Origin: a virus
Length of the DNA stretch: 37,495 nt
Direction: 5' to 3' (one strand)
IMG/VR virus record: IMGVR_UViG_3300047356_000655
Span: 1-37,495 of that record
Position numbers and translations under genes: made by a program. Below the pieces are notes generated by a model. That model saw nothing but the letters and a program-made list of their open reading frames with translations, was not told where the DNA came from and searched no databases. Of the stretch, positions 23,540 through 28,926 are shown in pieces. Every line of letters starts with the position of its first letter. Position 1 is the first letter of the stretch.

Positions 23540-23697
23540 GCGATGTATACGCCACCATATCGCTTCTCAAGCACAAGTTAATGGCATTGGAAGTAGATCT
23601 CCAGCGACCTCCTGACAGACCCAGCGCAACGCAACGTGTCCAGAGCTGCATTGCCCTGGTGGAAATGATTGAGCGACAGATGGGAGAAGAAAAATGA
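23536..23697 (+). CDS. Small helical protein between resolvase and Mom-like gene (53 aa)
   Basis: The frame reads MSDVYATISLLKHKLMALEV, then RPPDRPSATQRVQS, then EMIERQMGEEK. It starts with ATGA overlap with the resolvase and ends inside the next gene's start (ATGATGG). It is predicted as a helix-turn-helix-like hairpin, but without a clear recognition helix. No family known. Confidence 0.65.
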   Translation: MSDVYATISLLKHKLMALEVDLQRPPDRPSATQRVQSCIALVEMIERQMGEEK

Positions 23698-24347
23698 TGG
23701 AAGTAAAAAGCATCGAAAGTAAAGAAACTGATATCTGGCTTCTTAGTAAACATTACGCAAAGCGAAAATGTCAAAGGATGTTCTGCTTTGGTCTTTTTAT
23801 AAAAGGTGAAATGGAAGGAATTGTAACTTACGGAATGCCACCGTCTCCGCAAGTTGGAAGAGGATTTTTAGGGGAAGAAAATCGCACCAAAGTTATAGAA
23901 TTGAATAGACTTTGTATTAATGAACGAGCCCCAAAAAATTCAGCATCTTTTCTTGTTGGCAGAAGTTTAAGGCTATTAAAAAAATGGTCTATTGTCAGTT
24001 ATGCTGACGGGGCTATGGGGCATATTGGTTACATTTATCAAGCTACTAATTTTCTTTATTGTGGTGCAGCTAAATCGCACGACAAAGAATATTTTATTGA
24101 TGGGCAGTGGGTACATGCAAAAGTTTTAACAAATCGAGGCATCTCTGCACCGTCTGTTTATGCAAAAGAAAATAATATTTTAACAAAAAACCCACAACCA
24201 AAGCATAGATATATTTACTTTGGTGACAAAAATTTACGCAAGTATTTAAAATATGAGGTGCTCCCTTACCCAAAAGGCAAAACCAGCCGTTATTTATCAC
24301 CTGACATTATTTCAGAAAAACAATTTGAAATGCCTTTTTATGCTTAA
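23694..24347 (+). CDS. mom: Mom-like DNA-modification (anti-restriction) protein
   Basis: A 217-aa protein. It shows the features of phage Mu Mom and its relatives: KHYAKRKC near residue 20, GIVTYGMP (42-49), VIELNRLCIN (67-76), APKNSASFLVGR (79-90), SYADGAMGHIGYIYQATNF (102-120). Mom adds an acetamido-type group to adenine N6 and protects phage DNA from many restriction enzymes. The gene is markedly AT-rich beside the GC-richer resolvase and nuclease genes, which suggests recent acquisition. Either of two adjacent ATG codons (23694, 23697) may start it. The gene symbol is given by family resemblance. Confidence 0.85.
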   Translation: MMEVKSIESKETDIWLLSKHYAKRKCQRMFCFGLFIKGEMEGIVTYGMPPSPQVGRGFLGEENRTKVIELNRLCINERAPKNSASFLVGRSLRLLKKWSIVSYADGAMGHIGYIYQATNFLYCGAAKSHDKEYFIDGQWVHAKVLTNRGISAPSVYAKENNILTKNPQPKHRYIYFGDKNLRKYLKYEVLPYPKGKTSRYLSPDIISEKQFEMPFYA

Positions 24348-25999: not shown

Positions 26000-27930
26000 T
26001 GCCTGACTTTCCCAAAGCATATTGGGCCGAGTGGAGCGAGGCGATTATCAATCGATACTCCTTGCGAGAGGGGCCAGTGGGCGAGCACCACGGAAGTTGT
26101 CCAAATTGTGGACACAACGACTGGCCATCAACCAGGTTCTGGATCCATCAACGCGACGGCCTGGTAAAGTTCCAGTGCCGTCAGTGCAACGACTTCCAGG
26201 CGATCGTCGAGATCCTGGAGCACGACGGATGCTGGCCCCTGCTCGAAAAGAAACGACCGGAAATCAAGCTGAAGCAAAGCGGCAAGGATTACTTTGCCAA
26301 TGTTGTGCCTATGCCCAAGCAGGAGGATCCACCAGTGCAGTTCGACCCGTATACGCCTTACCATGAAAGAAAAGGAGTTGAGCTCATAGGCGCGGTGCTT
26401 GAAGGCTCTGACGTGGTGGTGCCATTGTTCAATACTAACCGTGAGCAAGTTGGCCATCAGCGTATCAACCCGACAGGAATTAAGCGCTTCAATCCTGGTC
26501 TTAAAAAAGATGGCGGAGTGTTTGGGGTTGTCGGTAAATTAGATTTCACGGGCAAGTGCTTCGTCAGTGAGGGATGGGCTACTTCGGTGTCCGTTCACAT
26601 GGCAAGCGATTACACGCCGGTTATCTTTGCCCTGGACGCCGGTAACCTGGCGACAGTATGCCAGGCGCTGCAAGAAACATGGCCGGACATGGAGCTAGTC
26701 ATAGCAGCCGATAACGATGCAAACCAGAAAGGCCAGGACGCAGCCAAGAGCACGGGATTACCCTGGACGGCGCCGGCAATGCCAGACACAGATTGGAACG
26801 ACCTCCACAAATCGCAGGGATTGCAAAGCGTGGCGACGGGGCTGAAGACACTGAAGCGACCGGAGAGCTTACTCGATGAGCTCGTGTGGATCGGCGACGC
26901 AAAGCCAATGCTTCAGTCGAACTATCTGATTAAGAACTGGCTGGGCTCCAAGCAGATGACGGTCGTCTACGGGCAAAGCAATACGGGTAAGTCGTTTTTT
27001 ACGCTCGACATGAGCTACCACATTGCCGCCGGTCGCACCTGGCACGGGCATAACGTGAAGCAAGGCGTCGTTCTTTATTATGCAGCGGAGGGCGGATCCG
27101 GTTATCTCAATCGAGCTCGTGCCATCCAGGACCATTACGGTGACGAGAACGTGCCGTTGGCGATACGTCCCTGCCCTGTCAACTTGCTCGATCCAGAAGC
27201 GGATCTGCCAAAGCTCCTGGCGCAAATAGATATGGTCAAAGAGACGCACGGCGAGATTGCAATGATTTGCGTCGATACCCTTAGTAGATCGATGGTTGGG
27301 GGAAACGAAAATTCACCAGAGGCGATGACGGCCATAATAAATTCCGGAGATCTGTTGAGATCCCATGCAGATTGCAGCATCGTTTTTGTGCATCACTCCT
27401 CAAAGGCTAACGAAAACGCAGCCCGTGGCCATTCCAGCCTCCGAGCCGCGACAGACACTGAAATAGAGGTGAACGTCGATGAGGTAAGCGGAATTCGCTT
27501 TGCCAAAACAACGAAGCAACGAGAGATCGAGGGAGGCCGTGAGTTCGCTTTTGAATTAGAGACAGTTATCCTGGGCGACGACGAAGACGGCGACAGCGTG
27601 ACGAGCTGCTACATCATGCCGGTGACTGAAGAGCGCAAGCAAGAAGCCAAGGTTAAGTTAAACGCGACCGACAAGAAAATGATCGAATGCTTTCTTCAAT
27701 TGCAGGGCGATAACGTCGGCAAAGCTAATCCAGGCGGCACTGGCTATCCGGAAAGCGGAACCAGGCACATGATTGATATTGATGATCTGCGAAAACATTA
27801 CTTGGGCAAAACAACAACAAAAAACGCAAGCCAGTCGTTTACCAGACCGTTCAATAATCTCGTCAACAAGGGGCAAATAGCCGTCAATGACGGGTTTTGT
27901 TGGTTAACCGCCAGAAAGTACAAATTATGA
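25999..27930 (+). CDS. Primase-helicase (zinc finger, TOPRIM, RepA-like ATPase)
   Basis: A 643-aa protein with a GTG start overlapping the previous stop. Domains in order: a zinc-binding motif at 34-63 (CPNCGH and CRQCND, Cys34/37/60/63); a TOPRIM domain at about 185-245 (FVSEGWATSVSV with Glu191; AADND with Asp238/240); and a RepA/DnaB-type ATPase at about 300-540 (Walker A GQSNTGKS 325-332; Walker B AMICVDTLSR; sensor VFVHHSSK). Such fusions both prime and unwind. The C-terminal 100 residues are a winged-helix-like tail. It is the main replication protein, and the iteron cluster lies directly after it. Confidence 0.93.
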   Translation: MPDFPKAYWAEWSEAIINRYSLREGPVGEHHGSCPNCGHNDWPSTRFWIHQRDGLVKFQCRQCNDFQAIVEILEHDGCWPLLEKKRPEIKLKQSGKDYFANVVPMPKQEDPPVQFDPYTPYHERKGVELIGAVLEGSDVVVPLFNTNREQVGHQRINPTGIKRFNPGLKKDGGVFGVVGKLDFTGKCFVSEGWATSVSVHMASDYTPVIFALDAGNLATVCQALQETWPDMELVIAADNDANQKGQDAAKSTGLPWTAPAMPDTDWNDLHKSQGLQSVATGLKTLKRPESLLDELVWIGDAKPMLQSNYLIKNWLGSKQMTVVYGQSNTGKSFFTLDMSYHIAAGRTWHGHNVKQGVVLYYAAEGGSGYLNRARAIQDHYGDENVPLAIRPCPVNLLDPEADLPKLLAQIDMVKETHGEIAMICVDTLSRSMVGGNENSPEAMTAIINSGDLLRSHADCSIVFVHHSSKANENAARGHSSLRAATDTEIEVNVDEVSGIRFAKTTKQREIEGGREFAFELETVILGDDEDGDSVTSCYIMPVTEERKQEAKVKLNATDKKMIECFLQLQGDNVGKANPGGTGYPESGTRHMIDIDDLRKHYLGKTTTKNASQSFTRPFNNLVNKGQIAVNDGFCWLTARKYKL

Positions 27931-28120
27931 TGGTTATACCAAGCTATACCATAAATAGTGTGATGTCTAAGTACCTGATTGTTATACATAAAATATATCA
28001 AAATGGTATAAATGGTATAGTTTGGTATATGTTTTGGTATTGGCAACGCCAAGTATACCGAAAATACCCTTTACCTTTAGGTAAGGGTATTCTTGGTATG
28101 GTTGCTCGGTCGGTATTAAA
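27931..28120 (+). promoter_or_regulatory. Iteron-like TGGTATA cluster, candidate replication origin
   Basis: In this 190-base gap without a gene, TGGTATA or its reverse TATACCA occurs at 27935, 27945, 28004, 28013 and 28023, with near matches at 27983, 28035, 28054, 28094 and 28110. Many sit 9-12 bases apart, that is, about one helical turn. At 28063-28091 an imperfect 12-bp hairpin (AATACCCTTTACC and GGTAAGGGTATT, 4-base loop) is built from the same letters. The place, directly after the primase-helicase, fits an origin. An operator cluster for a repressor is the alternative. Confidence 0.6.
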
Positions 28121-28351
28121 ATGCTGACCGAAGAGGATCTCAAAAGGTTGGAGTGGAAAGCTCCGGATTACGGAGAGATGACCGAGCAGGACTTCCTGCG
28201 TTTACTCAGAGCTGTCACAGATCTGGTGGAGCTGGAGTCGATCGCTAATCGGAAGCGACACCTCAACATGCCGGACCTGAGAAGTTGGAATAACTTCCAA
28301 CGCCAGGCGATCATCCAACGCAAGTGGGAAATTCAGAATGGACGAGGATAA
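28121..28351 (+). CDS. Unknown small protein
   Basis: A 76-aa, charged, helical protein (MLTEEDLKRLEWKAP, TEQDFLRLLRAVTDLVELE, RSWNNFQRQAIIQRKWE). There is no clear RBS, and a TGGTATA-like site abuts the ATG, so it may be controlled by that cluster. No family recognised. It overlaps the next gene by 14 bases. Confidence 0.68.
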   Translation: MLTEEDLKRLEWKAPDYGEMTEQDFLRLLRAVTDLVELESIANRKRHLNMPDLRSWNNFQRQAIIQRKWEIQNGRG

Positions 28352-28652
28352 GATGCGCGTCCAAATGATGGAGTTCGAACGCAAGCGAGCGAAGCTAGGA
28401 TTACGCGCTGCCCTGCCCGACGATAAGAAGCGCCGCAGAACGAGGGAACCGTTGTCCAGGCACGAGCTGCACGTTCTGACATTTATGCGAGCCGAGGGGA
28501 TATTAGATCTCGTGACGTTAGCCGGCGCGATGGACGAGACAAAGCAAGAGATGTTGGAGCAGCTCCACACACTAATCGATCGAGGCTACGTCAAAGTGGT
28601 GAGCGATCGAGGTTACGCGAAATACAGAGCGAGAGGTAAAGATGAACTATAA
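28338..28652 (+). CDS. Basic winged-helix-like protein
   Basis: A 104-aa protein. The N-terminal half is basic (RKRAKLGLRAALPDDKKRRR). Residues about 45-100 (LSRHELHVLTFMRAEGILDL, QEMLEQLHTLIDRGYVKVVS) look like a winged helix. It might bind DNA at the neighbouring origin or the terminase region. It overlaps both neighbours by about 11-14 bases. Specific role unknown. Confidence 0.7.
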   Translation: MDEDKMRVQMMEFERKRAKLGLRAALPDDKKRRRTREPLSRHELHVLTFMRAEGILDLVTLAGAMDETKQEMLEQLHTLIDRGYVKVVSDRGYAKYRARGKDEL

Positions 28653-28926
28653 AACAATTTTAGACAGAGCGAATAATATCCTGACGGATCGTGAAGACAG
28701 CTACGGAGACGCTCGACCATTGCATGAGACGATAGCTGATAGGTGGACGTCCGTCGTGCAGGACAAGTTAAAGCCTGGCGAGAAGCTTACAGCCTACGAG
28801 GTTGCTCGGATGATGGCAGAGCTGAAAGCTTCACGGATGGATAACACCGGCTTTCACGAGGACAGCTTGCTAGATCAAATCAACTACCTGGTAATCGCGT
28901 ACCGATTGCAAATGGATGACGTGTAA
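28642..28926 (+). CDS. DUF6378-type phage protein
   Basis: A 94-aa protein. The motifs LTDREDSYGDARPLHETIAD, then MMAELKASRMD and SLLDQINYLVIAYR match the DUF6378 family common in phages. It is predicted all-helical, possibly related to MazG-like nucleotide pyrophosphatases, but catalytic residues are not evident. It is the last gene before the structured gap. Confidence 0.78.
   Translation: MNYKTILDRANNILTDREDSYGDARPLHETIADRWTSVVQDKLKPGEKLTAYEVARMMAELKASRMDNTGFHEDSLLDQINYLVIAYRLQMDDV

Follow-up and report, generated by a model that had tools for sequence, protein, structure and literature searches.

Directly behind the primase-helicase gene of a marine phage, short words of the form TGGTATA recur on both strands. 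What is this repeat array for, and which protein reads it? The window, the whole stretch of DNA analyzed here and 37,495 bases long, is a virus record. Family searches found in it a portal protein (phrog_1216), a RecE-type exonuclease, a Gp2.5-like single-strand binding/annealing protein, a RuvC-like resolvase, a Mom-like protein, and the primase-helicase. The Mom-like DNA modification protein (23694-24347; Pfam PF25680, E 8e-46) is encoded beside the replication genes. The nucleotide search of a phage collection with the window gave no match, and the Rfam search gave nothing above the gathering scores.

Based on sequence comparison, it is very likely that 27931-28120 is the replication origin of the phage and that the primase-helicase encoded immediately upstream recognizes it in cis through a winged helix at its C-terminus. 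The features are collected in Table 1.

Table 1. Features of the primase-helicase gene, the repeat array, and the genes behind it
Feature	Position	Strand	Basis or remark
Primase-helicase gene, 643 aa, GTG start: Toprim_3, AAA_25, and C-terminal winged helix	25999-27930	+	Pfam PF13362, PF13481; PHROG DNA primase / primase-helicase families
Predicted winged helix, residues ~555-641, proposed iteron reader	27661-27921	+	AlphaFold2 pLDDT 77.8, order H-E-H-H-E-E
Third helix of the predicted winged helix, putative recognition helix, residues 610-623, including 611	27826-27867	+	Helix 81-94 of the model
Residue 607, just ahead of the recognition helix	27817-27819	+	
Left inverted iteron pair, TATACCA at 27935-27941 and 27945-27951	27935-27951	-	Exact words; kept in relatives
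A+T-rich spacer (74% A+T), candidate unwinding element	27957-28003	+	Base composition
Degenerate IHF-like site, one mismatch	27968-27980		Within the A+T-rich spacer
Central direct iterons, TGGTATA at 28004-28010, 28013-28019, and 28023-28029; TGGTAT at 28035	28004-28040	+	Register kept in relatives
Inverted iteron cores ATACC (28055, 28064), both within the 5' arm of the nested hairpin	28055-28068	-	
Hairpin, stem of 12 pairs with a single bulged base and loop TTTA (28076-28079); putative priming site for single-strand initiation	28063-28091	+	Energy folding
Direct iteron cores at 28086, 28095, and 28112	28086-28116	+	
76-aa protein, without family match	28121-28351	+	Dispensable for array presence in relatives
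104-aa protein, C-terminal half predicted winged-helix-like; possible regulator, unlikely iteron reader	28338-28652	+	

The repeat array and its hairpin

The primase-helicase gene ends with the stop codon at 27928-27930, and the array starts directly behind it. The repeats described in the sequence-only reading were recovered: 27931-28120 contains five exact TGGTATA/TATACCA, two on the minus strand and three on the plus strand, and 11 copies of the core GGTAT. In 2000 dinucleotide shuffles of the 190 bases, the core averaged 1.6 copies and never exceeded 6. The five identical 7-mers alone are less extreme, as 28 of the 2000 shuffles gave some 7-mer at least five times. The whole record of 37,495 bases contains seven TGGTATA, five of them in the array, against a chance expectation of 2.82, and none of 100 shuffles reached seven. 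When 190-base segments were scanned across the record in 10-base steps, a count of five was reached only by those overlapping the array.

The suggested spacing near one helical turn holds for neighboring words, which are 9-12 bases apart, but not for the whole set, which is broken into blocks. From left to right, a spacer of 52 bases separates a pair of inverted words from four direct ones; then come another inverted pair, the hairpin, a direct pair, and a single direct word. As had been noted from the sequence, the stretch is A+T-rich (66%) and gene-free; the list of reading frames has no likely gene in 27931-28120, and the overlapping frames are mechanical only. The general feature of iteron origins, a repeat cluster beside an initiator gene together with an A+T-rich segment, is present.

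The spacers were scanned with the IHF consensus. The exact consensus was observed in 26 of 86 related spacers, whose rows are kin sequences, versus 0.8% of shuffles. The spacer of the window has IHF-like matches only at one mismatch, a level reached by 12% of shuffles.

The hairpin of 12 pairs with a 4-base loop, also proposed earlier, was confirmed by energy folding, with one bulged base added. Energy folding was used instead of a gap-free hairpin search, which misses bulged stems. Further outer pairing (28056-28060/28094-28098) flanks the inner stem.

Relatives of the locus

Scans of IMG/VR with the helicase, the 76-aa protein, and the 104-aa protein gave 18, 13, and 28 loci, respectively, several of which share contigs. 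For viral relatives, the alignment search contributed the best 80 of 451; from bacterial genomes, it contributed 15 loci, all titled with alphaproteobacterial genera. Among the relatives with names are the cultivated Roseobacter phages CRP-811 and CRP-823 as well as Rhizobium phage 16-3. Each row had to be unique, to contain the stop codon, and to extend at least 150 bases beyond it, which left 82 distinct regions. With four named phages, 86 regions were obtained, each of 210 bases except for two that were read longer.

The array stays behind the primase-helicase gene across lineages, including those with other downstream genes. A repeated 7-mer at a shuffle p of 0.01 or below was observed in 62 of the 86 regions versus 3 of 85 control regions located 500-710 bases downstream. 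The 24 regions above p 0.01 mostly contain three to five copies, with p between 0.015 and 0.12. Repeats were observed in three of four gammaproteobacterial phages (Salicola CGphi29, Idiomarinaceae 1N2-2, and Alteromonas XX1924). The fourth, Vibrio phage 1.210.O, and the distant relatives L155, L167, and L168 either have repeats at chance level only or lack a cluster behind the gene. When IMG/VR was searched for stretches with three TGGTATA words close together, 29 were obtained, including one known relative, L081.

The nearest group comprises 22 distinct intergenic sequences, 19 of which were realigned. Their layout is nearly fixed, and their length is 191-204 bases except for L050 (98 bases). 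The word is TGGTATn, TGGTACG, or TGTTACG, and the copies change in concert. More distant words are found behind the homologous gene: TTATGACG in L018, GTATGAA in L118 and L126, TTAGGACA in L154, TTTGTAGT in CRP-811, and GCGTGACA in 16-3. The word is confined to the locus in complete phages; all 10 copies of TTTGTAGT are at the locus in CRP-811, and likewise all 10 in CRP-823. For phage 16-3, 13 of 17 copies of GCGTGACA are at the locus.

Some arrays are irregular. In L050 (contig IMGVR_UViG_3300017911_001171), three words are left; the greater part of the array and hairpin is missing, and a TGGTACGCT repeat marks the junction. This is either a natural deletion or an assembly collapse between repeats. 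L225 and L226 contain two words, TTTCCTACG and TTTCCGACA, in one array and are possibly caught between specificities. In L138 and L153, the hairpin arms have TGGTATA-like words and the remaining array has AATGTTAT; the arms may have a separate history.

By energy folding, 80 of 86 regions have a most stable 44-mer with z below -2, and in 66 its z is below -3; in a few rows this stretch is not the homologous hairpin. The common core of the hairpin in relatives is CC-TTTA-GG, CC-TATA-GG, or CC-TTAA-GG. Because the outer arms are inverted iterons, covariation of the outer arms proves nothing. Pairs between iterons reported by RNAalifold were dropped as evidence, since concerted change in inverted iterons mimics base pairing, and the evidence was restricted to the apical stem. 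The four apical pairs lie outside the iteron letters and covary independently of the repeats. Among their 76 cells, 98.7% are paired and 18 have changed on both sides. None of 500 shuffles was as high by either measure, and the signal was lost when the arms were slid. This covariation favors a structure that would actually form, in either DNA or RNA.

The iteron word and the winged helix

The helicase domain is RepA-type hexameric, as indicated by a profile match (E 1.1e-5) to 1g8y, the RepA of RSF1010. The AlphaFold2 model, which covers the last 114 residues of the primase-helicase, predicts a winged helix. With VIA-align, the best Z was 9.2, to a winged-helix/DNA structure, and the neighbors include the winged helices of ORC and MCM as well as CRP. 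Assignment to a PDB family was abandoned, as the best E by Foldseek was only 0.05 and the Z of VIA-align (7.6-9.2) was spread over many winged-helix proteins.

Residue 611, in the predicted recognition helix, agrees with the class of the word in 39 of 39 rows. Arg is associated with words in ...AC, and Ser or Asn with words in ...AT. These 39 are the rows among the 82 whose C-terminus fits a GK....N..Q-type pattern. The class was determined by the majority of ...AC or ...AT words in the array; the mixed arrays of L045, L046, L096, L103, and L105 contain three ...AC words beside five to nine ...AT words. Among up to 573 sufficiently filled columns in the alignments of the helicase (380; 39 rows), the 76-aa protein (81; 37 rows), and the 104-aa protein (112; 37 rows), the column of residue 611 is the only one without error. 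Residue 607 corresponds to the only column that separates base 3 (G versus T) among the ...AC words, in 21 of 21 rows. This rule is restricted to the ...AC group because the window combines Thr at 607 with TGGTAT.

A tree was constructed for 36 rows from the helicase without the winged-helix domain, as three of the 39 rows were too short. On this tree, the word and the residue each require five changes. Supported independent pairs agree in three of three cases for each trait, a number with which the sign test cannot reach p 0.05.

Sister genomes with different words (six pairs) are 63-78% alike in the 60 bases holding the recognition helix and 87-92% alike over the last 60 bases of the gene. 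They are mostly 60-77% alike in the array (87-92% in single bins) and mostly 80-100% alike beyond it. Exceptions are L045, which dips to 73% about 300 bases before the gene end, and the pair of L105, which is uneven throughout. This profile speaks against a single swapped block of domain and array. As the domain and the array are adjacent, shared inheritance explains some of the association.

Further families were compared by eye. NKS is associated with TTTCCTAT (L231), and NKR with TGCGACG (L227) and TTTCCGACG (L223). L235 has Arg at the equivalent of 611 and seven TGTGACG, while L237 has Ser with four TGTGACG and four TGTGATG; their C-terminal domains are similar. The register of the word in these distant families was set by judgement, so the fit there is a lead rather than a test. 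Together, the comparisons suggest that the tail of the primase-helicase reads the repeats and that the repeat and the reading residue change together in evolution.

Function of the array

The sequence-only reading had proposed a candidate replication origin, with GC skew as one check and the proteins encoded at 28121-28652 as possible binders. Comparison strongly supports the origin itself, as the array follows the primase-helicase across lineages and the word tracks its winged helix. The skew does not point to the array. In all four genomes analyzed (the window, CRP-811, CRP-823, and 16-3), both the minimum and the maximum of cumulative skew are away from the array, and GC skew was dropped as an origin marker. 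In the window, the skew follows gene direction and switches sign at about 18.5 and 22.5 kb, where the longer frames change strand. The GC skew at third codon positions changes from -0.02 before the array to +0.07 after it, a sign change too weak to use. The segment 18584-22900 contains mostly minus-strand reading frames and shows reversed GC skew; an integrase match within it is weak (E 7.5e-5).

The two small proteins are unlikely binders. The 104-aa protein is winged-helix-like, but no column of either alignment, in the 37 rows each, predicts the word. Within the sequence available for each locus, recognizable homologues of both proteins were missing at 36 of 86 loci, 24 of which still have significant repeats. 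In L014 and L016, the 104-aa protein has diverged (60% identity to that of the window) and the word is unchanged. It is likely that the iteron binder is the C-terminal domain of the primase-helicase rather than these proteins. The same observations weigh against the words being operators for a regulator, either the 104-aa protein or the primase-helicase, of the genes for the 76-aa, 104-aa, and DUF6378 proteins, without any origin. The array does lie directly upstream of this co-directional gene set, the possible regulator is predicted to be winged-helix-like, and a weak promoter-like match ends at 28122. However, more than 10 words with a hairpin exceed what operators usually need, and operators without an origin are unlikely. 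As for the gene at 28642-28926, which matches Pfam DUF6378, it also matches PHROG families named phosphofructokinase; a CRP-823 protein near the helicase is annotated as dATP/dGTP diphosphohydrolase, and the PHROG name may be wrong.

An origin could also serve a second role. The iterons of iteron plasmids are also bound to repress or limit initiation, and the array, located between the helicase and the downstream genes, might in the same way repress these genes or limit initiation. Its many copies and inverted pairs would permit pairing of arrays, but the downstream genes differ between lineages; this double role is possible, if rather doubtful. It is very unlikely that the hairpin ends transcription of the helicase operon as an intrinsic terminator, with the words as a side effect of the arms. 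A mechanical terminator-like match is seen at 28068-28087, but the words reach far beyond the hairpin. In the relatives in which the homologous stem was located, the eight bases after it mostly contain zero to three T, with four or five in the AATGTTA lineage and the CRP phages. A partition or packaging site in place of a replication origin is the least probable and can hardly be expected: clustered repeats are typical of such sites too, but no partition gene was found among the proteins scanned, a subset of the window's reading frames, and the word tracks the helicase domain.

For a replication origin, we infer binding, melting, loading, and priming from the observed anatomy and the observed co-variation of the word with the recognition helix. 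Several primase-helicase molecules would attach through their winged helices to the TGGTATn words in both orientations. Around the A+T-rich spacer, this binding would melt the DNA, perhaps with bending by host IHF. A RepA-type hexamer would then assemble on the exposed strand and unwind the DNA. The nested hairpin, extruded or exposed as a single strand, could be the landing site, where the Toprim domain would lay the first primer for extension by a host polymerase.

Of the systems described so far, P4 alpha, RSF1010, and pRN1 come closest. According to PMC4234260, P4 alpha combines a Toprim primase, a helicase, and a repeat-binding winged helix in one protein; oriV of RSF1010 (IncQ) contains RepC iterons with the short stem-loops ssiA and ssiB nearby, at which the primase acts; and ORF904 of pRN1 is a primase-helicase with a C-terminal winged helix, whose gene is directly followed by an essential stem-loop origin. 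Like P4 alpha, the 643-aa protein has a Toprim primase fused to a helicase (PF13362 and PF13481), and its predicted winged helix, a candidate counterpart of that in P4 alpha, co-varies with the repeats. The helicase of P4 alpha belongs to SF3, whereas the helicase here is AAA_25/RepA-type (1g8y match) and did not classify as SF3. Unlike in P4, the array follows the gene immediately and has a covarying hairpin within it, and the word is different and variable.

RSF1010 shares the RepA-type hexameric helicase (the same 1g8y profile match) and the combination of iterons with a short stem-loop. RepA, RepB', and RepC are separate there, whereas Toprim, helicase, and winged helix are in one protein here; the primase is of another type, and the iterons here are short words of 7-8 bases. 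The covarying hairpin may correspond to the single-strand initiation hairpin of RSF1010, and by analogy with the stem-loops next to its iterons, it is a putative priming site used by the primase. In pRN1, a primase-helicase with a C-terminal winged helix (predicted here) and a stem-loop region directly behind the gene are similar, but the primase is archaeo-eukaryotic, the helicase is SF3, and the large stem-loop has no iterons. In lambda and P22, the iterons bound by the phage initiator O are part of the O gene, and a separate protein acts as helicase. Phage iterons with a phage initiator are proposed here as well, but the array is outside the gene, and no O-like family was found among the replication-region proteins scanned. 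In the best reading, the origin follows the plan of P4 alpha, but its helicase is RepA-type and its hairpin resembles those of RSF1010.

The replication start of these phages is not described in the literature found. A term search of the roseophage paper (PMC12629253) led to one passage and no origin, and the AP-16-3 paper (PMC10460002) has no mention of replication, origin of replication, repeats, primase, or iteron. Literature titles and the starts of abstracts, a coverage mostly outside subscription papers, gave no description of these origins. With the array, a probable origin becomes computable for a widespread group of phages and proviruses whose hosts are marine and soil Alphaproteobacteria, as well as for some gammaproteobacterial phages.

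A broader proposal, which we consider about equally likely to hold or to fail, is a one-protein replicator with a specificity code. One residue would set one iteron base (Arg/Lys for C, Ser/Asn for T, and perhaps Asp for G) and a second residue another (Ala for G, Thr/Gly for T). Origin and initiator would shift together in few steps, leading to mutually blind replicons, and the hairpin would be the landing pad of the primase in a fused RSF1010-like replisome. How an initiator and many copies of its site change specificity together thereby becomes testable. Natural near-pairs exist (L103/L105 versus L109/L110, and L235 versus L237), which make a swap of one residue and one base feasible.
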